From contig CACXJZ010000019.1 of assembly GCA_902768105.1 (NCBI GenBank), positions 1 to 45,451 on the forward strand: a DNA stretch of 45,451 nt, in the 5' to 3' direction. Source of the DNA: an uncultured Prevotellaceae bacterium (GTDB taxonomy: Bacteria; Bacteroidota; Bacteroidia; Bacteroidales; Bacteroidaceae). Position 1 is the stretch's first letter. Each line of letters starts with the position of its first letter. The notes beneath the pieces were generated by a model. The model saw nothing but the letters and a program-made list of their open reading frames with translations, did not search any database and was not told where the DNA came from. Shown piece after piece: positions 2,113 through 17,787 of the stretch. The translations under genes and the position numbers were made by a program.

Positions 2113-3525
2113 CTAACAGCCGGATGGTGAGTGGTAAGTAGATTCTATGAGTTCCAGCAGACGCTCGACAGCCTCTTCCTCAGGGATGTTCTTCAGCACG
2201 CACTCCTTGCCACGGTAGAGCGAAATCTTGCCTCGGCCGGCACCCACGTAGCCGTAGTCGGCATCGGCCATCTCGCCCGGCCCGTTGACGATGCACCCCA
2301 TGATGCCAATCTTCAGACCAACCAGATGACTGGTAGCTTTTTTGATGCGGGCGATGGTCTCCTGCAGGTTATAGAGCGTGCGACCGCAACCCGGACAGGA
2401 GATGTATTCCGTCTTGGTGAACTTGATGCGGGCAGCCTGGAGGATGGAATCAGCAAGAGAAGTGAAAAGTGAAGAGTGAAGAGTGAATAATTTGCTACCG
2501 CTTTCCGGCTGAATGATCAATTTCGTGGCCTTGCGGTCTATCAGGAGTGATCCGGCAGCCATGGCGGCTTTCAACTGCAGGGTCTCGAAGTCGGGGGCAT
2601 CAAGCACCATGTGAAGCGTATCGTCCTCTATCCACATCCGCTCCTGATTCCCCTCCTTTTGGAGGGGCAGGGGGAGGCTTCCGATGAGCTCCACGAGCTT
2701 ACGGGCTACGGGAATCTCGGCCTCCGGCTCCTCGCTGAGCGAGACGCGGATGGTGTCGCCGATGCCCTCGGTGAGCAGGGCACCGATGCCTACGGCCGAT
2801 TTGATGCGACCGTCCTCACCCTCGCCGGCCTCGGTGACGCCGAGGTGGAGGGGATAGTGCATATCCTCTGCATCCATCGTCTTAACGAGCAGGCGCACGG
2901 TAGTGACCATGACCACCGTGTTAGAGGCCTTGATGCTGATGACCACGTCGTCGAACTGTTCGCGACGGAAGATGCGCAGGAACTCCATGCAGCTCTCCAC
3001 GATGCCTTCGGGCGTGTCGCCGTAGCGCGACATGATGCGGTCGGAGAGCGAGCCGTGGTTCACACCGATGCGTACGGCCGTATGGTGCTCCTTACAGATA
3101 TTGATGAAGGGCACAAGCTTCGCCTCAATCTTCTGCAGTTCAGCAGCATACTCCTCGTCGGTATATTCCAGATGCTTGAATGTACGGCCTGGGTCAACGT
3201 AGTTGCCGGGGTTGATGCGTACCTTCTCACAATACTGGGCTGCCACGTCGGCGGTATGGGCTGTGAAGTGTACGTCGGCCACGAGGGGCTGCGTGTAGCC
3301 ATCGGCCTTCAGACGTGCAGAGATATTCTTCATGTTCTCTGCCTCACGGGTGCCCTGCGTGGTGAAACGCACCAGCTCACCACCGGCATCGATGATGCGC
3401 TTGGCCTGCGCCACGCAACCTTCGGTGTCGTTGGTATCGACGGTGGCCATCGACTGTATGCGGATGGGGTTTGTGCCGCCGATGGCGATGTTGCCGACGT
3501 GGGCTATCGTTGTTTTTCTTCTCAT
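2113..3525 (-). CDS. ispG: 4-hydroxy-3-methylbut-2-enyl diphosphate synthase (IspG/GcpE), with repeat-derived segments
   Basis: IspG converts MEcPP to HMBPP in the non-mevalonate isoprenoid pathway, using a [4Fe-4S] cluster. Residues 1-270 are the TIM-barrel domain (TNPIRIQSMATVDT near the start; VTEAGEGEDGRIKSAVGIG). The C-terminal domain carries the cluster cysteines (SCPGCGRT, GIMGCIVNGPGE). The sequence is of the plant/Bacteroidetes type, which as known to me carries a large extra domain and runs to about 600 residues. Here the protein is 470 residues and the middle is only about 90. That middle is bounded by two peptides encoded by dispersed DNA repeats: SLPLPLQKEGN (DNA 2650-2677) and SKLFTLHSSLFTS (DNA 2461-2501). 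The frame stays open and all cluster cysteines are present, so it is probably functional. It lies 23 nt downstream of purE. Confidence 0.94.
   Translation of the reverse strand: MRRKTTIAHVGNIAIGGTNPIRIQSMATVDTNDTEGCVAQAKRIIDAGGELVRFTTQGTREAENMKNISARLKADGYTQPLVADVHFTAHTADVAAQYCEKVRINPGNYVDPGRTFKHLEYTDEEYAAELQKIEAKLVPFINICKEHHTAVRIGVNHGSLSDRIMSRYGDTPEGIVESCMEFLRIFRREQFDDVVISIKASNTVVMVTTVRLLVKTMDAEDMHYPLHLGVTEAGEGEDGRIKSAVGIGALLTEGIGDTIRVSLSEEPEAEIPVARKLVELIGSLPLPLQKEGNQERMWIEDDTLHMVLDAPDFETLQLKAAMAAGSLLIDRKATKLIIQPESGSKLFTLHSSLFTSLADSILQAARIKFTKTEYISCPGCGRTLYNLQETIARIKKATSHLVGLKIGIMGCIVNGPGEMADADYGYVGAGRGKISLYRGKECVLKNIPEEEAVERLLELIESTYHSPSGC
2461..2501. repeat. Heptad (TTCACTC) element, copy inside ispG
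   Basis: This 41-bp copy differs at three positions from the identical copies at 6876-6916 and 8216-8256. It lies inside ispG, and its minus strand is translated as SGSKLFTLHSSLFTS. Unlike the three intergenic copies, no -7 box lies 8 bp beyond its TTCACT end. Confidence 0.85.
2650..2677. repeat. G-rich hairpin repeat inside ispG
   Basis: A perfect 7-bp stem, CCCCTCC - TTTT - GGAGGGG (2650-2667), is followed by CAGGGGGAGG. On the minus strand it encodes the low-complexity peptide SLPLPLQKEGN. C-rich/G-rich hairpins of this shape recur in intergenic DNA of Prevotella and relatives (recollection). A degenerate version lies in the VanZ-like gene at 13337-13356. Confidence 0.6.
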
Positions 3526-6859: not shown

Positions 6860-6867
6860 CAAAAGTA
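6860..6867 (-). promoter_or_regulatory. -7 box TACTTTTG for the rpoN-ispG run, with heptad element upstream
   Basis: Minus-strand TACTTTTG matches TAnnTTTG and lies 21 nt upstream of the ATG at 6838. Exactly 8 bp upstream (AAATTTTG) begins the TTCACTC heptad element at 6876-6916. No TTTG occurs at the usual -33 spacing; that position falls within the heptads. Confidence 0.75.
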
Positions 6868-6875
6868 CAAAATTT

Positions 6876-6916
6876 AGTGAAGAGTGAAGAGTGAAGAGTG
6901 AAGAATTTGCTGCCGC
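6876..6916 (-). repeat. Heptad (TTCACTC) element, copy upstream of the rpoN run
   Basis: Read on the minus strand: GCGGCAGCAAATTC, then three TTCACTC heptads and a final TTCACT. It is identical over all 41 bp to the copy at 8216-8256, in opposite orientation. Its TTCACT end is 8 bp from the -7 box at 6860-6867. Confidence 0.9.
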
Positions 6917-6963
6917 TTAACCATTTTTACATTTTTTCATTCTTTCCTTTCTACATTTATCAC

Positions 6964-6971
6964 TACCTTTG
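6964..6971 (+). promoter_or_regulatory. -7 box TACCTTTG for the secreted-protein gene
   Basis: TACCTTTG matches the Bacteroidetes -7 consensus and sits 26 nt upstream of the ATG at 6998. TTTC near 6943 is a weak -33 candidate. Together with 6860-6867 it makes a divergent promoter region split by the heptad element. Confidence 0.7.
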
Positions 6972-6997
6972 CATAGAAATCATAAAAAAGAACATCC

Positions 6998-8203
6998 ATG
7001 AAGCAGTTTCTGACAACGATATTCATCCTTTGTATGGCAGTGTGCGGCATCCGTGCCCAGGTCACGGAACCCGCGGAACAGGATGACGGCATTGAGTACG
7101 AGGCCATGCAGACGGACTATGGTTATTACGGCACGACGAACGCGCTGTTCTCGACCAGCGAGACCGTCATCTGCACCTTCTCGCTGACACAAAATAAGCC
7201 CAAGGGAGAGAAGATATACCCCACGATGCTGAGCATCTGGCTGCATGCCGATGCCTTCTCTACGAAGAGTCAGGAGCTGACCATCAAGCAGATAGCTAAT
7301 GCAGGGTCGCGTGTGGTCGATGGGCAGTTCCGTCATCCTGCCACGCTGCTGCTGTCGAACGACGAAGAGGTGAAGCTGAACTTCACCATCAACAACCTGA
7401 CGGACGACCACACCCACCATACCGTCATGCTGGCGGCACCCATCTCCGACATCGACAACGTGCACAACACCGCCATGTACGGAGAACTGGCAACGAAGCT
7501 GCGCCGCTACGACATCGTGGCCATTACCATTGCTGACGTGACGCTGAGTCTGAGAATGCTGGGGTTCCATTCCGCCGCCTACATCAACGGCATCTGTAAG
7601 GAACTGATGCTGGCAGGCTGTAACACGGCATCGTTTAATGCACTGGACAGTCGTGAGGCCGACGAGTTCGACGTGAGCGGTTTCAGGTTGACGAGCCACG
7701 AGAAGAGCATCGACGAGCTGGTGTTCCATGCCTTGGGCTGCTTCCCCACCGACATCCGTCACATCAAGCCGACGACGGCTGTAGAGGTCATCCGTAAGAA
7801 TACCGAATGGATTATCGACGACGAGCCGGACTTCCACGAGTTGGAGTTTACACAGGCCGATGGCTATGACTTCAAGTATCACGGTCTGCAAATCAGTGCT
7901 GAGATGTGTTGGGAAACACCTGCAGGCAGTAGCCTGAACAACGTCAGTGCGATGGTGTTCAGTGGCTATAATTACTACTTCAAGCTGAACTCCAAAGACA
8001 AGAAGGCCGTCAAGGAGGCTTACATCGTCTTGCGTGAGGAATTGGAGGTGCTGGGCTTCCACTTGCAGCCGTTCCGTGGCGACGAGGGTGACAAAGAGCC
8101 GCTGCAGGCTACCCGTGAAACCTGTCACATAGAGACGTGCTACTACCTGAATGTCCATGACCAATATGTCATTCAGCTCAAGGTAAAGCCCTATCAAGAA
8201 TGA
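6998..8203 (+). CDS. Secreted protein of unknown function (401 aa)
   Basis: The protein starts with a signal peptide (MKQFLTTIFILCMAVCGIRAQ, cleavage likely after GIRA) and has no lipobox or further membrane segment, so it should be periplasmic or exported. The mature part is mixed alpha/beta and polar. It contains VKLNFTINNLTDDHTHHTV and a C-terminal half rich in Y, F and K, with no domain I recognise. A 405-residue open frame on the other strand (6980-8197) is a shadow: it lacks a signal or promoter. The gene has its own -7 box and is enclosed, promoter included, by a perfect 41-bp inverted repeat (6876-6916 and 8216-8256). Function unknown. Confidence 0.8.
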   Translation: MKQFLTTIFILCMAVCGIRAQVTEPAEQDDGIEYEAMQTDYGYYGTTNALFSTSETVICTFSLTQNKPKGEKIYPTMLSIWLHADAFSTKSQELTIKQIANAGSRVVDGQFRHPATLLLSNDEEVKLNFTINNLTDDHTHHTVMLAAPISDIDNVHNTAMYGELATKLRRYDIVAITIADVTLSLRMLGFHSAAYINGICKELMLAGCNTASFNALDSREADEFDVSGFRLTSHEKSIDELVFHALGCFPTDIRHIKPTTAVEVIRKNTEWIIDDEPDFHELEFTQADGYDFKYHGLQISAEMCWETPAGSSLNNVSAMVFSGYNYYFKLNSKDKKAVKEAYIVLREELEVLGFHLQPFRGDEGDKEPLQATRETCHIETCYYLNVHDQYVIQLKVKPYQE

Positions 8204-8215
8204 AAAAATAGGGGT

Positions 8216-8256
8216 GCGGCAGCAAATTCTTCACTCTTCACTCTTCACTCTTCACT
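8216..8256 (+). repeat. Heptad (TTCACTC) element, copy upstream of the phosphatase gene
   Basis: GCGGCAGCAAATTC is followed by three TTCACTC heptads and TTCACT. It is identical over 41 bp to the reverse complement of 6876-6916. An 8-nt spacer (TTTTTTTG) separates it from the -7 box at 8265-8272. Confidence 0.9.
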
Positions 8257-8264
8257 TTTTTTTG

Positions 8265-8272
8265 TAACTTTG
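8265..8272 (+). promoter_or_regulatory. -7 box TAACTTTG for the phosphatase-ligase-prfB run
   Basis: TAACTTTG matches TAnnTTTG. The start of transcription would fall near 8279-8280, which argues for translation from the ATG at 8290 or 8296 rather than 8281. The -33 position lies within the heptad element and has no TTTG. Confidence 0.75.
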
Positions 8273-8280
8273 CCCCCAAA

Positions 8281-9582
8281 ATGATACAAATGAACATGAA
8301 AAGACTATTTATTCTAACACTGACAGCTTGCTGTGTGCTCATTGCCAGTGCACAGTCGGCACGTGAGGATTTCAAGAAGGATACGCACCTGTCGGCCAGT
8401 AACTACCTGGCTTATCCGGGTCCCACACAGGGAGCACTTACGCCTGCTCCAGACGGGAAAAAGCCCTTCTATATCAGTCACTACGGTCGTCATGGTTCAC
8501 GCTACCTTGTTAATTCTGATGAGTATAAGCAACCCTATGACATACTGAAAGCTGCTGACGAGGCAGGCAAGTTGACACCCCTTGGTAAGGACGTGTTGCG
8601 TCGTGTGAAGATGATCAAGGACGAAGCGTACAACCGCTACGGTGAGTTAACTCCCTTAGGAGCCTTGCAGCACCGTCAGATAGCCAAGCGTATGTACGAG
8701 CGCTTCCCCGAGGTGTTTGAGGGCGAGGCCAACATCGATGCCAAGAGCACAATCGTCATACGCTGTATCCTCTCTATGGAGAATGAGATGCAGCAGCTGC
8801 TTATCATGAATCCCAAGCTGAACATTATCCACGATGCCTCGGAGCATGACATGTGGTATATGAATTTTTCTGACAAAGAATTACGTTCCAAGCGCCGTAA
8901 CTTTGATGTAGAAAAGGCTTACAATGATTTTGTGGCTGAGCACCGCAATTACAAGCGTGCCATGTCGGCACTCTTCAACGATAAGGACTATCTGGAGAAG
9001 AAGGTGGATGCCTGGCAGTTGAACCGTTATCTCTTCAAGCTTGCCAGTAACCTGCAGAGCACGGAGCTGCACAAGAAGATTACGTTGTACGACATCTTTA
9101 CGGATGACGAGATATACAGCAACTGGCTGATTGCCAACGCACGCTGGTACATGGATTATGGTGCCTGCCCTGCCAATGGTGGCATGCAACCCTTCACCCA
9201 GCGCAATTTGCTGCGTACCATCATCCACCAGGCCGATAGCTGTCTGCTTCTGAAGAAACCAGGTGCTACGTTACGCTTCGGTCACGAGACGATGGTGCTA
9301 CCGCTCACCTGCCTGATGGGTCTGAATGGCTATGACCTCCAGGAGACGAACTTCGACAAGCTTGAAGGCAAGGGCTGGCTCGACTACCGCGTGTTCCCTA
9401 TGGGTGCCAATATCCAGATTATCTTCTATCGTAAGAACTTCGATGACAAGGATGTCCTGGTCAAGGTGCTGCTCAATGAGAACGAGGTCAAACTCCCCAT
9501 CAAGAGCAATATGGAGCCGTATTACCGGTGGAGTGACTTCCGACAGTATTATCTTAGCAAACTCGATACTTACGGCAAATAA
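8281..9582 (+). CDS. Secreted histidine-type (acid) phosphatase
   Basis: A 433-residue member of the histidine phosphatase clan, branch 2 (acid phosphatase/phytase/MINPP-like). Visible motifs are the RHG nucleophile motif in HYGRHGSRY (His at about residue 71) and a proton-donor HE in RFGHETMVLP (about residue 335). Mature residues begin after a signal peptide, MKRLFILTLTACCVLIASAQ. In-frame ATGs are at 8281, 8290 and 8296. The last gives the cleanest signal peptide and a short leader after the -7 box at 8265-8272, so it is my preferred start. The likely role is release of phosphate from organic phosphates, perhaps inositol phosphates, in the periplasm. It is followed after 8 nt by the ligase gene. 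Confidence 0.88.
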   Translation: MIQMNMKRLFILTLTACCVLIASAQSAREDFKKDTHLSASNYLAYPGPTQGALTPAPDGKKPFYISHYGRHGSRYLVNSDEYKQPYDILKAADEAGKLTPLGKDVLRRVKMIKDEAYNRYGELTPLGALQHRQIAKRMYERFPEVFEGEANIDAKSTIVIRCILSMENEMQQLLIMNPKLNIIHDASEHDMWYMNFSDKELRSKRRNFDVEKAYNDFVAEHRNYKRAMSALFNDKDYLEKKVDAWQLNRYLFKLASNLQSTELHKKITLYDIFTDDEIYSNWLIANARWYMDYGACPANGGMQPFTQRNLLRTIIHQADSCLLLKKPGATLRFGHETMVLPLTCLMGLNGYDLQETNFDKLEGKGWLDYRVFPMGANIQIIFYRKNFDDKDVLVKVLLNENEVKLPIKSNMEPYYRWSDFRQYYLSKLDTYGK

Positions 9583-9590
9583 CAACCATT

Positions 9591-11399
9591 ATGCAAATCA
9601 ACAGTCATCTGTCTGTACTCATACGTGACCTGGCAGCCCATTGGGGCAGTCGCGAGGCGCTGATATATCAGGACTTCGGAGGTTCGGAGTGGAAGTCGTA
9701 CTCGTGGCAGCAGTTTGCCGACAAGGTGCACACCGTCTCGCTGGCTATGCTCGACTTGGGCGTGCAGCCACAAGAGAATATCGGCATATTCTCGCAGAAC
9801 TCCGTGCAGTATCTCTTTACTGACTTCGGGGCATGGGGCATCCGTGCTACCACCATTCCCTTCTATGCCACCAGTTCGGAGCAACAGATACAGTTCATGA
9901 TTAACGATGCGAAGATACGCATTCTCTTTGTGGGCGAGCAGGACCAGTATGACAAGGCACACCGCATCTTCTCATTCTGTCCCACGCTGGAGCTCATCGT
10001 TGTCTATGATCCGAAGGTGCGCATCAGTTCGCACGACCCGGGAACCATTTACTTCGACGATTTCCTGAAGAAGGGTGACTCCCACGAGCATGCGGAGCTC
10101 CTGGAGCAGCGTTATGCGGAGGCATCGATGGACGAGATAGCTAACATCCTTTATACCAGTGGCACTACGGGCGACTCGAAAGGCGTCATACTGACCTTTG
10201 GACAGTTCTATGCCGCGATGGAGGCTAACGGGCACTGTGTGCCTGTGACGGACAAGGACCGCGTGCTCAACTTCCTACCTTACACGCACATCTTTGAGCG
10301 TGGATGGGCCATACTGAGTCTCACTGTGGGTGCACGGCTCATCGTTAATACCTACCCGCAGCAGGTGCAGCAGAGCATGCGCCAGACACACCCCACCAGC
10401 ATGTCGTCTGTTCCCCGTTTCTGGGAGAAGGTCATGCAGGGCGTACAGGAACAGATAGACAATGCTAACCCCGCTAAGCGTGCCATTTTCCAGCATGCGC
10501 TGGCTGTTGGCAAGAAACATAACATTGACTACCTAAGCAAGGGACAGAAGCCCCCTATGGCGCTGCATCTGGAGTATGAGATGATTAACCGCACCATCTT
10601 CAGTCTTGTGCGTAAGGAACTGGGACTGGAGAACGCCAACATCTTCCCTACGGCAGGTGCTGCCGTCAACCCCAGTGTCGAGGAGTTCGTGCATGCCATA
10701 GGTCTGAACATGATTGTAGGCTATGGACTCACGGAAAGTCTGGCTACTGTCAGCTGTAACCACTTGGGCAAGCCCTTCACCGTAGGCGGCGTGGGCATAC
10801 CCATCGACTCCATACAAATCAAAATCAGCGACGAGGGTGAGGTAATGCTCAAGGGTCCCACGATTACCCGTGGCTATTACAACCGTGACGAGCTGACACG
10901 TGAGGCGTTCGACGAGGAAGGCTTCTTCCATACGGGCGATGCCGGCTACATGAAGGGCAACGAGCTGTTCCTGAAGGAGCGCATCAAGGACCTTTTCAAG
11001 ACCTCGAACGGCAAGTATATCGCACCGCAGATGATTGAGTCGAAGCTGCTCGTTGATAAGTACATTGACCAGATAGCCGTCATTGCCGACCAGCGTAAGT
11101 TCGTCTCTGCCCTCATCATCCCTGAGTACAAGCTTCTGGAGGATTATGCTGCCAAGCATAACATCCATTACAAGGACCGTGAGGAGCTCTGTCGCAACCG
11201 TGAGATTTACGACATGATGATGGAGCGCATCGATACCCTCCAGCAGCAGCTCGCCCATTATGAGCAGGTGAAGCGCTTTACCCTGCTGCCCCACCATTTC
11301 TCGATGGACCGTGGTGAGCTAACCAATACGCTGAAAATCAAACGTAGGGTGCTTAACGAGAACTACAAGAAAGAAATAGACGCGATGTACGCGGAATAA
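9591..11399 (+). CDS. Long-chain fatty-acid-CoA ligase / AMP-dependent synthetase
   Basis: A 602-residue adenylate-forming enzyme. The P-loop-like motif LYTSGTTGDSKG lies near residues 186-197, YGLTES in the middle (adenylate binding) and FHTGDAGY and LKERIKDLFKTSNGKYIAP towards the C-terminus (hinge and catalytic Lys region). The length and motif spelling fit the FadD15-like long-chain acyl-CoA synthetases, which activate free fatty acids with ATP and CoA; these are common in Bacteroidetes. No other beta-oxidation gene is nearby, so it more likely serves recycling of fatty acids into lipids. Start ATG 8 nt after the phosphatase stop; prfB follows after 3 nt. Confidence 0.93.
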   Translation: MQINSHLSVLIRDLAAHWGSREALIYQDFGGSEWKSYSWQQFADKVHTVSLAMLDLGVQPQENIGIFSQNSVQYLFTDFGAWGIRATTIPFYATSSEQQIQFMINDAKIRILFVGEQDQYDKAHRIFSFCPTLELIVVYDPKVRISSHDPGTIYFDDFLKKGDSHEHAELLEQRYAEASMDEIANILYTSGTTGDSKGVILTFGQFYAAMEANGHCVPVTDKDRVLNFLPYTHIFERGWAILSLTVGARLIVNTYPQQVQQSMRQTHPTSMSSVPRFWEKVMQGVQEQIDNANPAKRAIFQHALAVGKKHNIDYLSKGQKPPMALHLEYEMINRTIFSLVRKELGLENANIFPTAGAAVNPSVEEFVHAIGLNMIVGYGLTESLATVSCNHLGKPFTVGGVGIPIDSIQIKISDEGEVMLKGPTITRGYYNRDELTREAFDEEGFFHTGDAGYMKGNELFLKERIKDLFKTSNGKYIAPQMIESKLLVDKYIDQIAVIADQRKFVSALIIPEYKLLEDYAAKHNIHYKDREELCRNREIYDMMMERIDTLQQQLAHYEQVKRFTLLPHHFSMDRGELTNTLKIKRRVLNENYKKEIDAMYAE

Positions 11400-11402
11400 T
11401 AT

Positions 11403-12521
11403 ATGATTACGCAAGATCAACTGAAAGATGTGTTGGATAGGGCCGATAAGCTGAGGCACTATCTGAAGATTGACGAGAAGCAGATGGAGTTCGAGGAAGA
11501 GGACCTGCGTACGCAGGCGCCTGACTTCTGGGAGGACCCCAAGCGTGCTGAGGAACAGATGAAGAAGGTGAAGGGTATCAAGCGCTGGCTCGACGGCTAT
11601 AGGCAGGTGCGTACGCTGGCCGACGAGCTGCAGCTGGCTTTTGACTTCTATAAAGATGAGATGGTAACTGAGGAGGAGGTTGACGCTGACTATCAGCGAG
11701 CTATTGATGCCATTGAGTCGCTGGAGCTGATGAACATGCTGCGGCAGAAAGAGGACCCGATGGACTGCGTGCTCAAGATCAATAGTGGAGCCGGCGGCAC
11801 CGAGGCTCAGGACTGGGCACAGATGCTCATGCGCATGTATCAGCGTTGGGCTGAGGCTCACGGCTATAAGGTGACCATCAGTTCGCTGCTCGAAGGCGAC
11901 GATGCCGGTATCAAGAGCGTGACCATGCAGATTGAGGGTGGCGAGTATGCCTATGGTTACCTGAAAAGCGAAAACGGCGTTCACCGTCTGGTACGTGTCA
12001 GTCCGTTCAATGCTCAGGGTAAGCGTATGACGTCGTTCGCATCGGTTTTCGTATCGCCACTCGTCGATGATACCATCGAGGTGTATGTTGACCCTGCAAA
12101 GCTTTCTTGGGACACGTTCCGAAGCAGCGGTGCCGGTGGTCAGAATGTGAACAAGGTGGAGTCGGGTGTGCGTCTGCGTTATTGGTACACGGATCCTGAT
12201 ACGGGTGAGGAGGAAGAAATCCTTATTGAGAACACCGAGACACGTGACCAGCCAAAGAATAAGGAACGTGCGCTGAAGTTGCTGAAGTCGCAACTCTACG
12301 ACCGTGCCATGAAGAAGCGCTTGGAGGCGCAGGCGAAGATTGAGGCTGGCAAGAAGAAGATAGAGTGGGGTAGTCAGATACGTTCGTATGTCTTCGACGA
12401 CAAGCGTGTGAAAGACCACCGCACGAACTACCAAACCTCGGATGTGGATGGCGTGATGAACGGTAAAATCGACGATTTCATCAAGGCCTACCTCATGGAG
12501 TTTCCCGTCATGGAAGAATAG
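11403..12521 (+). CDS. prfB: Peptide chain release factor 2 (RF2), no programmed frameshift
   Basis: A 372-residue RF2, which terminates translation at UGA and UAA. The codon-recognition tripeptide SPF is at about residues 200-202 (RVSPFNAQGK) and the GGQ peptidyl-hydrolysis motif at about 245-247 (SSGAGGQNVNKVES). In many bacteria an in-frame UGA near codon 26 forces an autoregulatory +1 frameshift. Here the matching place (after ADKLRHYL) reads straight through as KIDEKQM without a stop in frame. The gene starts 3 nt after the ligase stop and is therefore likely co-transcribed with it. Confidence 0.96.
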   Translation: MITQDQLKDVLDRADKLRHYLKIDEKQMEFEEEDLRTQAPDFWEDPKRAEEQMKKVKGIKRWLDGYRQVRTLADELQLAFDFYKDEMVTEEEVDADYQRAIDAIESLELMNMLRQKEDPMDCVLKINSGAGGTEAQDWAQMLMRMYQRWAEAHGYKVTISSLLEGDDAGIKSVTMQIEGGEYAYGYLKSENGVHRLVRVSPFNAQGKRMTSFASVFVSPLVDDTIEVYVDPAKLSWDTFRSSGAGGQNVNKVESGVRLRYWYTDPDTGEEEEILIENTETRDQPKNKERALKLLKSQLYDRAMKKRLEAQAKIEAGKKKIEWGSQIRSYVFDDKRVKDHRTNYQTSDVDGVMNGKIDDFIKAYLMEFPVMEE

Positions 12522-12556
12522 AATTGTAAATGGTAAATTGTTAAATTGTAAATATT
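12522..12556. repeat. AT-rich AAATTGTAAAT repeat between prfB and the small gene
   Basis: The stretch contains near-repeats of TTGTAAATGGTAAA and TTGTTAAATTGTAAAT. The same AAATTGTAAAT word occurs on the minus strand between nusA and infB. It fills the whole spacer and reaches the start codon at 12560. Confidence 0.5.
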
Positions 12557-12559
12557 ATT

Positions 12560-12700
12560 ATGAGTCAAAAAGGAAAGGCTCGTCGTGCAGCCCGTGAAGC
12601 ACGACAGGAGAAAGAAGGCAAGCAGGTGATTAACTGGATTTTCGGAGCACTGATTCTGCTCGGAATCATCTACGTGGTTTACGCTGTAGCAACAGCATGA
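12560..12700 (+). CDS. Small single-span membrane protein (46 aa)
   Basis: A 46-residue ORF: a basic N-terminal half (MSQKGKARRAAREARQEKEG, 10 K/R) followed by one membrane segment (VINWIFGALILLGIIYVVYAV) and a short tail. The positive-inside rule puts the basic part in the cytoplasm. Its TGA overlaps the ATG of the CYTH gene as ATGA (12697-12700), a classic coupled arrangement. This, with the regular composition, is why I take it as real. The function is unknown; the basic segment could contact RNA, ribosome or acidic lipids, but that is speculation. Confidence 0.75.
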   Translation: MSQKGKARRAAREARQEKEGKQVINWIFGALILLGIIYVVYAVATA

Positions 12701-13173
12701 GCGGATTCGAAATCGAACGCAAGTTCCTTGTCCGTGGTGACGACTATAAGCGTCAGGCTTACAGTCACAGCCATATTAAACAGGGTTATATCTGTGGGGG
12801 TCGCGGACGTACTGTCAGGGTACGCCTTCGCGACGACCACGGGTACCTGACTATCAAAGGTCCCAGTACGAACGGCGGACTGAGCCGTTATGAGTTTGAG
12901 AAAGAGATAACGCTTGACGAGGCAGAGCACCTGTTCGAGCTTTGTGAGCCGGGCATCATCGAGAAGACGCGCTGGCTGGTAAAGAGTGGCAACCACACCT
13001 TCGAGGTCGATGAGTTCTTTGGCGAGAATGCTGGCCTGGTGATGGCCGAGGTAGAGCTTGCGTCAGAAGATGAAGCGTACGAAAAGCCCGATTTCATCGG
13101 AGAAGAGGTGACGGGCGACCGCCGTTACTATAACTCTTCGCTGCGAGTCAACCCCTTCTCGCAGTGGAAATAG
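12697..13173 (+). CDS. CYTH-domain protein (triphosphate tunnel metalloenzyme family)
   Basis: A 158-residue protein that begins with the CYTH signature ExExK (EIERKFLV, residues 4-11). It continues with alternating charged beta-strands (RTVRVRLRD, YLTIKG, RYEFEKEI, FEVDEFFGENAGLVMAEVEL) that would line the tunnel and bind metal and triphosphate. Bacterial members of this size hydrolyse inorganic tripolyphosphate or act as class IV adenylate cyclases; the short bacterial type here fits a triphosphatase better. It overlaps the small membrane protein gene by 4 nt. Its 3' end overlaps the convergent VanZ-like gene by 26 nt. Confidence 0.9.
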   Translation: MSGFEIERKFLVRGDDYKRQAYSHSHIKQGYICGGRGRTVRVRLRDDHGYLTIKGPSTNGGLSRYEFEKEITLDEAEHLFELCEPGIIEKTRWLVKSGNHTFEVDEFFGENAGLVMAEVELASEDEAYEKPDFIGEEVTGDRRYYNSSLRVNPFSQWK

Positions 13174-13558
13174 CCATCAAGATTATTCCAAACACGGCAC
13201 CCAGTGTGACGCCCAGCGAGTTGGCTGCAAAGTCGAACCACTCACCGTTGCGTGTGCTGGTGGCGTACTCCTGTAGCAGTTCGAGCAGGCCGCTCATCAG
13301 GATGGGGGCAAGCCAAGCCCAGAGGAAAAGTTTCATCTTCCCTCCCTTTGGAAGGACTCGGTGGTGAGCTTTGATATACTCTATCCAAATGACTGAGCAT
13401 GTGCCGCCATACATGACGAGGTGTGTCCACTTGTCGATGAACTGAACGTCGTCGAGTGGTGTTTCAGGGAAGAACGGTATCAGCGAAAGCACCCAAACCA
13501 GTGCGATGCAAAGGATGGAAAAGGGGTATTTCTTTACAAATTGCCAGCAATCTCTCAT
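13148..13558 (-). CDS. VanZ-like membrane protein
   Basis: A 136-residue protein with about four membrane segments. It carries typical VanZ-family features: SLIPFFPETPL after the first segment, FIDKWTHLVMYGG, SGLLELLQEYA and FDFAANSLGVTLGAVFG. The role of the family is not settled; VanZ itself gives low-level teicoplanin resistance. The cytoplasmic loop AHHRVLPKGGKMK is encoded by a degenerate copy of the G-rich hairpin repeat (13337-13356). The promoter is at 13579-13586, and its 3' end overlaps the CYTH gene by 26 nt, tail to tail. Confidence 0.85.
   Translation of the reverse strand: MRDCWQFVKKYPFSILCIALVWVLSLIPFFPETPLDDVQFIDKWTHLVMYGGTCSVIWIEYIKAHHRVLPKGGKMKLFLWAWLAPILMSGLLELLQEYATSTRNGEWFDFAANSLGVTLGAVFGIILMAISTARRG
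13337..13356. repeat. Degenerate G-rich hairpin repeat inside the VanZ-like gene
   Basis: CTTCCCTCCCTTTGGAAGG resembles the CCCCTCC-TTTT-GGAGGGG hairpin of ispG (2650-2667), with substitutions. It encodes part of the loop RVLPKGGK. The match is approximate. Confidence 0.4.
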
Positions 13559-13578
13559 ATTTTATTTATTTTAGGCTA

Positions 13579-13586
13579 CAAAAGTA
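13579..13586 (-). promoter_or_regulatory. -7 box TACTTTTG for the VanZ-like gene
   Basis: Minus-strand TACTTTTG lies 20 nt upstream of the ATG at 13558. It abuts the heptad element at 13589-13621, which on this strand runs in the opposite sense. Confidence 0.6.
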
Positions 13587-13588
13587 CA

Positions 13589-13621
13589 AAATTCTTTACT
13601 CTTCACTCTTCACTCTTCACT
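13589..13621 (+). repeat. Heptad (TTCACTC) element, shortened copy upstream of the NSS transporter
   Basis: This copy begins at AAATTC and lacks the GCGGCAGC part. Over 33 bp it differs at one base from 8224-8256. Its TTCACT end is again exactly 8 bp (TTTTTTAT) from a -7 box, at 13630-13637. Confidence 0.85.
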
Positions 13622-13629
13622 TTTTTTAT

Positions 13630-13637
13630 TACTTTTG
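13630..13637 (+). promoter_or_regulatory. -7 box TACTTTTG for the NSS transporter
   Basis: TACTTTTG matches TAnnTTTG and follows the heptad element by 8 bp. There is no TTTG at -33 spacing. Transcription should begin near 13644, so an apparent TTG start at 13635 cannot be used. Confidence 0.7.
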
Positions 13638-17559: not shown

Positions 17560-17567
17560 CAAAGGTA
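17560..17567 (-). promoter_or_regulatory. -7 box TACCTTTG for pgeF
   Basis: Minus-strand TACCTTTG is a full match to TAnnTTTG, 27 nt upstream of the ATG at 17532. No clear -33 TTTG was seen. Confidence 0.7.
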
Positions 17568-17701: not shown

Positions 17702-17787
17702 GTTTGCGTACGCGCAAACAACCGTTCGCGCCTACGCAAACAACTGTTTGCGCGTACGCAAACAACTGTTTGCGCGTACGCAAAAGC
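17702..17787. repeat. 22-bp tandem array of palindromic units (four copies)
   Basis: Units begin at 17702, 17724, 17746 and 17768. Units 3 and 4 carry GTTTGCGCGTACGCAAA, unit 2 is a variant (GTTCGCGCCTACGCAAAC) and unit 1 (GTTTGCGTACGCGCAAAC) is the exact reverse complement of the core of unit 3. Units are separated by AAC[CT]. Each core has 7-bp arms, GTTTGCG and CGCAAAC, around four bases. It lies about 87 bp upstream of the -33 box of the glycosyltransferase promoter. Confidence 0.85.

Follow-up and report, generated by a model that had tools for sequence, protein, structure and literature searches.

Does a short tandem heptad that lies directly upstream of several promoter boxes belong to the promoters, or is it a copy of a repeat that promoters can accommodate? 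This question is raised by a stretch of DNA of 45,451 nucleotides from an uncultured Prevotellaceae bacterium (contig CACXJZ010000019.1, analysed over its full length and called the window in the following), in which TTCACTC arrays precede -7 boxes of the form TAnnTTTG. An original prediction had described three intergenic arrays as a dispersed promoter module, either an alternative upstream promoter element or operator heptads for a shared regulator. We found that the arrays are a dispersed repeat of near-fixed length with an interchangeable heptad, which stands at a fixed distance from -7 boxes and also lies in frame in genes.

All three intergenic arrays were present where they had been described, and each is separated from its -7 box by the 8 bp that had been given. 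Array 1 on the minus strand (6876..6902, (TTCACTC)3TTCACT) follows the head GCGGCAGCAAATTC (6903..6916, minus) and faces the box TACTTTTG (6860..6867, minus). Array 2 (8230..8256, plus) lies between the same head GCGGCAGCAAATTC (8216..8229, plus) and the box TAACTTTG (8265..8272, plus). Array 3 (13595..13621, plus) has no GCGG head; it faces the box TACTTTTG (13630..13637, plus) and, 8 bp off its other side, a reverse -7 box (13579..13586, minus), with 43 bp between both boxes. In all three cases the TTCA of the array lies at a gap of 10 bp to the box. Each array has four units and not the three heptads proposed before, the first unit of array 3 being the degenerate TTTACTC. A fourth array of four heptads (2461..2487, minus) had been overlooked. 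It lies in frame (SKLFTLHSSLFTS) inside ispG (GcpE family; 2113..3525, minus), and so does its head GCGGTAGCAAATTA (2488..2501, minus). Altogether the window holds 14 matches to TTCACTCTTCACT with up to two mismatches against 1.43 expected, and 14 were reached in 0 of 100 shuffles.

The same anatomy recurs throughout the genome that holds the window (G000; other G numbers denote relatives compared with it). There, the 13-mer TTCACTCTTCACT has 126 exact matches and the reversed pattern none. The context was read for 56 arrays (54 array ends with their neighbours, in which arrays of at least two exact units were sought). A TAnnTTTG box is faced by 22 of them, at 8 bp (13 arrays), 9 bp (7), 10 bp (1) or 16 bp (1); two have a box only on the other side, array 3 has one on each side, and 32 have none within reach. 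A genome-wide check of the fixed distance, set beforehand, was therefore passed, since 21 of the 22 box-facing arrays lie at 8-10 bp. Similar results were obtained in the named contigs (at least 117 loci with 123 arrays among the matches listed), where eight arrays had a box within 30 bp downstream, seven at 8 bp and one at 9 bp. Moreover, exactly four units were counted in 49 of the 56 arrays of G000 when one mismatch per unit was allowed, and in 129 of 201 arrays of the named contigs, each of these loci having been retrieved for holding at least four units. The perfect 7-bp tandem units are those of a heptanucleotide microsatellite; the freely varying unit number expected of one was not seen in G000. 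Many arrays follow a 14-bp head, GCGGYAGCAAATTC, whose core GCGGYAGCAAA has 36 copies in the genome versus 3 for the reversed pattern and sometimes stands without a heptad array behind it (30 loci were cut out). The resulting unit of 27-41 bp is not palindromic. Two further observations were made. At L088, 11 bp without a -7 box separate the end of an array from the 5' end of a downstream tRNA-Ser gene (1602-1687, minus), and identical copies of the 31-bp TTCACTC array were found in contigs whose titles name Verrucomicrobia, Dysgonamonadaceae, Sulfurovum and Epsilonproteobacteria (L108, L123, L152, L161).

The box-less class accounts for the copies in genes. Sixteen of the 56 arrays, all drawn from the 32 without a box, lie in frame in 13 open reading frames (ORFs) of at least 200 aa with at least five residues on either side; arrays at gene ends are outside the 16, and two overlapping ORFs of at least 200 aa (rows 11 and 43) were excluded because their frame is likely to be wrong. 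A Pfam family was matched by 12 of the 13 hosts: GcpE/IspG, a SAM methyltransferase with a PUA-like domain (presumably RlmI-like), RecF/SMC, formyltransferase N and C domains (Fmt), GH42/DUF5597, DUF4129, GH77 glucanotransferase, type III glutamine synthetase, carbon-nitrogen hydrolase, histidyl-tRNA synthetase (HisRS, gene hisS), NigD-like and aspartyl-protease/PDZ. The fmt gene carries two arrays in tandem. In HisRS, Fmt, the hydrolase and the glutamine synthetase the inserts are extra or unaligned residues relative to the best solved homologue. The latter two are encoded by adjacent genes, each with two inverted arrays that are both in frame; in the antisense array TTAACTC replaces TTCACTC and the TGA is lost. 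The sense strand of TTCACTC has no stop in any frame. Since every antisense frame of an intact array contains TGA, we did not count the sense-only orientation of intact coding arrays as independent evidence. In the named contigs a sense ORF of at least 150 aa surrounds 68 of the 123 arrays (among the matches listed), with a codon-phase bias of 53:13:2 that may partly be due to the head, which brings TAG into one frame when it reads GCGGTAG. The other 55 arrays, the class with no long ORF, include the eight promoter arrays, and the promoter test there covered too short a stretch. A dispersed promoter module is too narrow a description for a repeat with 16 of 56 copies in frame. In three exported-looking proteins (L045, L046, L097) the in-frame array falls within a signal-peptide-like stretch (e.g. 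AFFTLHSSLFTSC). Besides, the ispG of the window is a 470-aa form; in many other genomes of the genus the open frame is longer than 600 aa and includes a middle stretch unmatched by the window protein.

The heptad itself can be exchanged. Upstream of -7 boxes in G000 the head is followed by TTCACTC, TCTCCTC, CTCTAAA or TAAACTT arrays, and the head-to-box distance is about 38 bp across these heptads (25 bp in one shorter case, L291); CAAA at a gap of 38-40 bp is found upstream of 30 of 92 boxes. The orthologous protein loops of relatives likewise contain other repeats or none. The HisRS loop has TTCACTC in G000 and G067, TCTCACC in G049 and CAATGCT in G071, and the Fmt loop has TTCACTC in G000, G050 and G053, a single unit in G051, CTCCACT behind the same head in G023 and ATTATCC in G049. 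A CAATGTT-like heptad occupies the hydrolase loop of G053 and an octad the glutamine synthetase loop of G060. For IspG, the TTCACTC peptide was also found in G067, and other heptads in G022 (L245) and G044 (L247). Among loci of relatives that were not picked for repeats, period 7 was the most frequent (44 arrays), followed by period 14 (21) and period 8 (19). Per Mb, period 8 exceeds period 7 in G044, G060 and G050, period 12 exceeds it in G048 and G016, period 14 is as frequent as period 7 in G067, and in G040 periods 7 and 8 each reach 2 per Mb. Therefore, heptads are not universal in the genus, as other periods equal or exceed them in several genomes. In G044 we also observed octads, GGAGTTAA, in inverted pairs with four units per arm (L408 6279-6383, L411 19239-19359); a variant unit is shared by the two arms, as though one arm had been copied from the other.

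How a promoter could work with such an array in place depends on the upstream signals of the genus. The σABfr promoters of Bacteroidota combine TAnnTTTG at -7 with TTTG near -33 (PMC7366714). The -7 box of the array promoters is the same, and the upstream words most enriched in the genus likewise include TTG or TTTG at 19-20 bp. In contrast to σABfr promoters, TTG at a gap of 19-21 bp was found at 0 of 46 heptad-abutted boxes (23 in G000, 17 in named contigs and 6 in relatives, the three sets in which TTG was counted), compared with 280 of 752 other strict boxes. This lack is partly by construction because the array covers that position; its content is that such arrangements precede genes expected to be expressed, e.g. 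rpoN and prfB. It had been proposed that the arrays stand where other promoters have their -33 motif. Indeed, neither TTTG nor TTG occurs at the three array boxes of the window and TTTG lies at 19-20 bp from five others, but several further boxes of the window, some of them strong, have neither.

In the information profile of heptad-free boxes, TTG at about -23 to -20 is accompanied by a second block, TTTCA, at -16 to -12. TTCA at 11 bp from the box was counted at 49 of 725 boxes (10 times the expectation) and, in G016 and G040, at 16 of 353 (5.8 times). For pooled natural boxes the count at gap 11 was 72 of 1174 against 7.4 per offset, with 12 at gap 10. The excess was significant in eight of nine single genomes of the genus (Poisson p 0.04 to 3e-8) and in the named pool (4e-15), and a promoter-like site of the window (17560-17567, minus) also has TTCA at gap 11. 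The available part of the σABfr promoter description contains no mention of TTCA 11 bp upstream of the box (PMC7366714). At a spacing of 8 or 9 bp, the TTCA of a TTCACTC array falls at gap 10 or 11. We rotated each array through its seven registers and scored them with a matrix of natural promoters. With a matrix that included G000 and relatives, the observed register of 20 units had a mean rank of 2.14 of 7 (simulated p 5e-6). A second matrix was built only from boxes of G016 and G040 without a period-7 run; G016 has one TTCACTCTTCACT match in all, and period-7 arrays are rare in G040. It gave a mean rank of 2.43 for 19 units (p 2e-4), with 2.14 (p 5e-6) for positions -17 to -9 alone and 2.76 (p 0.003) for -24 to -18 alone. 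Arrays of 19-20 different units thus tend toward the phase that would supply a TTCA-like upstream signal.

Arrays 1 and 2 are associated with a segment that was not found in relatives. The ORF upstream of rpoN and the phosphatase gene, which flank it, are directly divergent (at most 250 bp between the matches) in 12 of 59 other genomes. The same pair is also divergent in three further relatives (G046, G074 and G016), with distances of 0.7, 1.8 and 3.1 kb among them; in the remaining relatives the two genes were found on different contigs, at a large distance or not at all. Of the 12 intergenic stretches read, 11 contain a divergent box pair within 130 bp, and in five the boxes are 12 bp apart. 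In G000 the two gene matches are separated by 1,445 bp, the extra DNA consisting of the inverted arrays 1 and 2 around a 401-aa ORF (6998..8203, plus); from array to array this segment measures 1,381 bp (6876..8256). No homologue of the ORF was found in the 59 other genomes of the genus, no match in Pfam, PHROG or NCBIfam, and no relative in viral contigs. Since the flanking genes are directly divergent in 12 of 59 relatives, the promoters at arrays 1 and 2 probably represent a single bidirectional promoter, with an array capping each of its halves, and the arrays look like the inverted ends of an inserted segment. At the transporter promoter with array 3, the distance between the divergent boxes is 43 bp both in G000 and in G072, which lacks TTCACTC. 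This equal length suggests that the array replaced sequence rather than adding length.

Taken as a whole, the explanation that we consider the most probable, with moderate confidence, is that the arrays are copies of a dispersed, promoter-compatible repeat and not primarily a promoter module, and that TTCACTC arrays are one form of a broader tendency of the genus towards short heptad arrays, with units favoured by each species. The repeat often consists of the 14-bp head followed by four 7-bp units (27 bp). At promoters, the array would overwrite the -33 region and stop at a 16-bp core, i.e. the 8-bp stretch of mostly A/T and TAnnTTTG. The promoter would stay usable, as the phase of the array places a TTCA-like sequence at or within 1 bp of the natural TTCA position, 11 bp upstream of the -7 box; for this reason the array may work as an alternative, sequence-flexible upstream promoter element rather than as an operator. 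In proteins, the array would be tolerated in loops, signal peptides and ends, helped by the stop-free sense strand of TTCACTC, and the unit would be copied by some trans-acting process. Of the two roles proposed originally, the alternative upstream element is thus supported by the genome-wide spacing, the missing TTG and the phase, and the operator for a shared regulator is not.

Several observations weigh against this explanation. The TTTCA block stands out in two sets and is weak for G016 and G040, and TTCA at gap 11 was absent from all 94 boxes in four genomes of other families and from all 11 boxes in G067. The commonest TTCACTC spacing, 8 bp, brings TTCA to gap 10, one off the natural peak; the observed phase of TTCACTC arrays ranked first in 5 of 23, second in 17 and third in one. 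Some other units ranked poorly (AAAAGTG 6, AATTATG 5, AAGAGTG 4.8, AAACTTT and AATTAGT 4). The activity of the boxes and the upstream contact supplied by the array are inferred. Where arrays have been copied, the counts are less independent than they appear. Extra DNA between the divergent gene pair is not unique to G000, being present in G046, G074 and G016 too. No target duplication was demonstrated, the flanks being A/T-rich and the sites of the twelve relatives too diverged to define an empty site. Neither a transposase nor any other mover was identified; the enclosed ORF has no family match, and the gene content beside other arrays was not surveyed.

This last point also bears on the alternative that the head and array are the terminal inverted repeat of an element resembling a miniature inverted-repeat transposable element (MITE) or carrying genes, served by a transposase in trans, with single arrays as remnants. 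Arrays 1 and 2 with their orphan ORF fit such an element. Moreover, G000 has seven close inverted array pairs, 66-109 bp from start to start and always with the heads inside, and no pair of the opposite arrangement within 200 bp; two inverted pairs are those in frame in the adjacent hydrolase and glutamine synthetase genes. Of 19 arrays in IMG/VR contigs, eight fall within ORFs of at least 100 aa, two of the eight being identical in sequence. However, the interiors of the inverted pairs, compared by eye, are mostly unrelated (two pairs on C29 are partly alike), the head and the boundaries differ between copies, and the transporter promoter has the same length with and without the array. We therefore regard mobile-element ends as a rather unlikely account of the arrays. 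A gene cassette was rejected for the whole family, as arrays 1 and 2 are the only ones in the window that bound an ORF.

Alternatively, each array could be an ordinary heptanucleotide microsatellite that grew by slippage, locus by locus, up to the limit set by the constrained core promoter or by the structure of the protein. The prevalence of period 7 in the unselected loci of relatives, though not in every genome, is consistent with this, and heptamers have been reported to be over-represented in bacteria, with polymerase slippage suggested as the cause (PMC4692102). Likewise, the Fmt sequence of G051 is 21 nt shorter than that of G053, exactly the length of three heptads. Nevertheless, dozens of unlinked loci share the heptad, the number of four units and often the head, which independent slippage would not readily produce, and this makes slippage an unlikely origin.

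The omega protein of plasmid pSM19035 offers a comparison for operator heptads. In the present case, one regulator would bind the TTCACTC array and co-regulate the genes downstream, and the near-fixed site length, the fixed distance to the -7 box and one dominant orientation toward it (22 versus 3) would all suit an operator. An operator is a sequence-specific site confined to regulatory regions, but the same array lies in frame inside housekeeping genes, and within one genome its slot behind the head can also be filled by TCTCCTC, CTCTAAA and TAAACTT arrays. The window genes next to the arrays are unrelated and have no evident common function. On the coding copies and the interchangeable heptads we rejected the shared operator, which is very improbable. 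A trans-acting enzyme, telomerase-like or reverse-transcriptase-like, that writes the heptad array favoured by a species at breaks or fixed sites would suit the species-favoured units, the near-fixed length and the apparent overwriting at equal length, but is purely conjectural and the most improbable of the mechanisms considered.

Divergent -7 boxes (GCAAAnnTA / TAnnTTTGC) showed a regularity of their own, their distances clustering near 12, 33, 43, 64, 75, 85, 96, 106 and 115 bp. Loci L101-L493 and the window were pooled and similar loci merged, which left 121 pairs. These gave R = 0.61 at 10.5 bp, which was also the best period between 6 and 16. The ladder was significant in pooled sets, held in the 105 pairs without a heptad run, was weak in G016 and G040 (R 0.38, p 0.03) and was not significant in G000 alone (n 13, p 0.13). 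Among controls with relaxed boxes, the signal was weaker for same-strand pairs (R 0.25, best period 10.6, p 0.0006), and convergent pairs gave R 0.17 (p 0.03, best period 7.3). A spacing of 12 was found in 13 of the 121 pairs, which are possibly orthologous. We consider the ladder to be real but incidental; a 27-bp array flanked by an 8-bp spacer on either side (8+27+8 = 43) fits into it. A more far-reaching idea, put forward tentatively, is that a self-spreading unit of about 41 bp serves both as an exchangeable upstream promoter half and as a translated protein insert, and that four-unit arrays fit the ladder exactly. Its sequence would drift between species, and its period, number and promoter phase would be kept because seven approximates the spacing of the TTG and TTTCA blocks (about 7-8 bp apart) and three units correspond to two turns of the helix and to seven codons.

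Related repeats have been described in other bacteria. Like the repeat of G000, Rickettsia palindromic elements are short and dispersed, fall into several families and are inserted in frame in unrelated metabolic genes (PMC10969869). They are palindromes of about 150 bp with a conserved peptide, whereas the arrays are 27-41 bp of tandem heptads without these features and also stand at promoters at a fixed distance. The GGGAATC heptamers of Xanthomonas share the heptamer unit, mostly four units, the dispersal and the close inverted pairs; they are G-rich and 89-93% intergenic, unlike the TTCACTC arrays, many of which are in frame and many locked to a promoter box (PMC4692102). Heptamer arrays are also formed by TAACTGA in Beggiatoaceae, Cyanobacteria and some Bacteroidetes, and some Bacteroidetes intergenic regions hold other heptamers (PMC4679880). 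In the best-studied genome most TAACTGA arrays lie just upstream of start codons and a translational role was proposed, whereas the fixed reference here is the -7 box (PMC4679880). Within Bacteroidota, the BrickBuilt MITE of Porphyromonas gingivalis is a dispersed element with a tandem repeat and bidirectional promoter activity; it has a 23-bp unit, is much longer than the G000 repeat and was described as always intergenic (PMC4596501). Among the literature matches listed on heptamer repeats, palindromic or in-frame elements, Bacteroidetes promoters and the helical spacing of divergent promoters, no title or opening abstract described the element, the TTCA signal or the ladder, which is not proof of absence.

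If the favoured explanation is true, transcription starts and the sequences of proteins, essential enzymes among them, are shaped by one and the same short repeat in a large gut and rumen genus. The promoter code of this genus would then include TTCA at 11 bp from the -7 box as an additional signal, and divergent promoters would follow a helical rule. It would also bear on how repeats can spread without breaking genes. Besides the arrays, an Rfam search of the window returned a tRNA as its sole match, and a 22-bp tandem unit in 3.3 copies was found at 17713-17784, with an internal palindrome CGCAAACA..TGTTTGCG.

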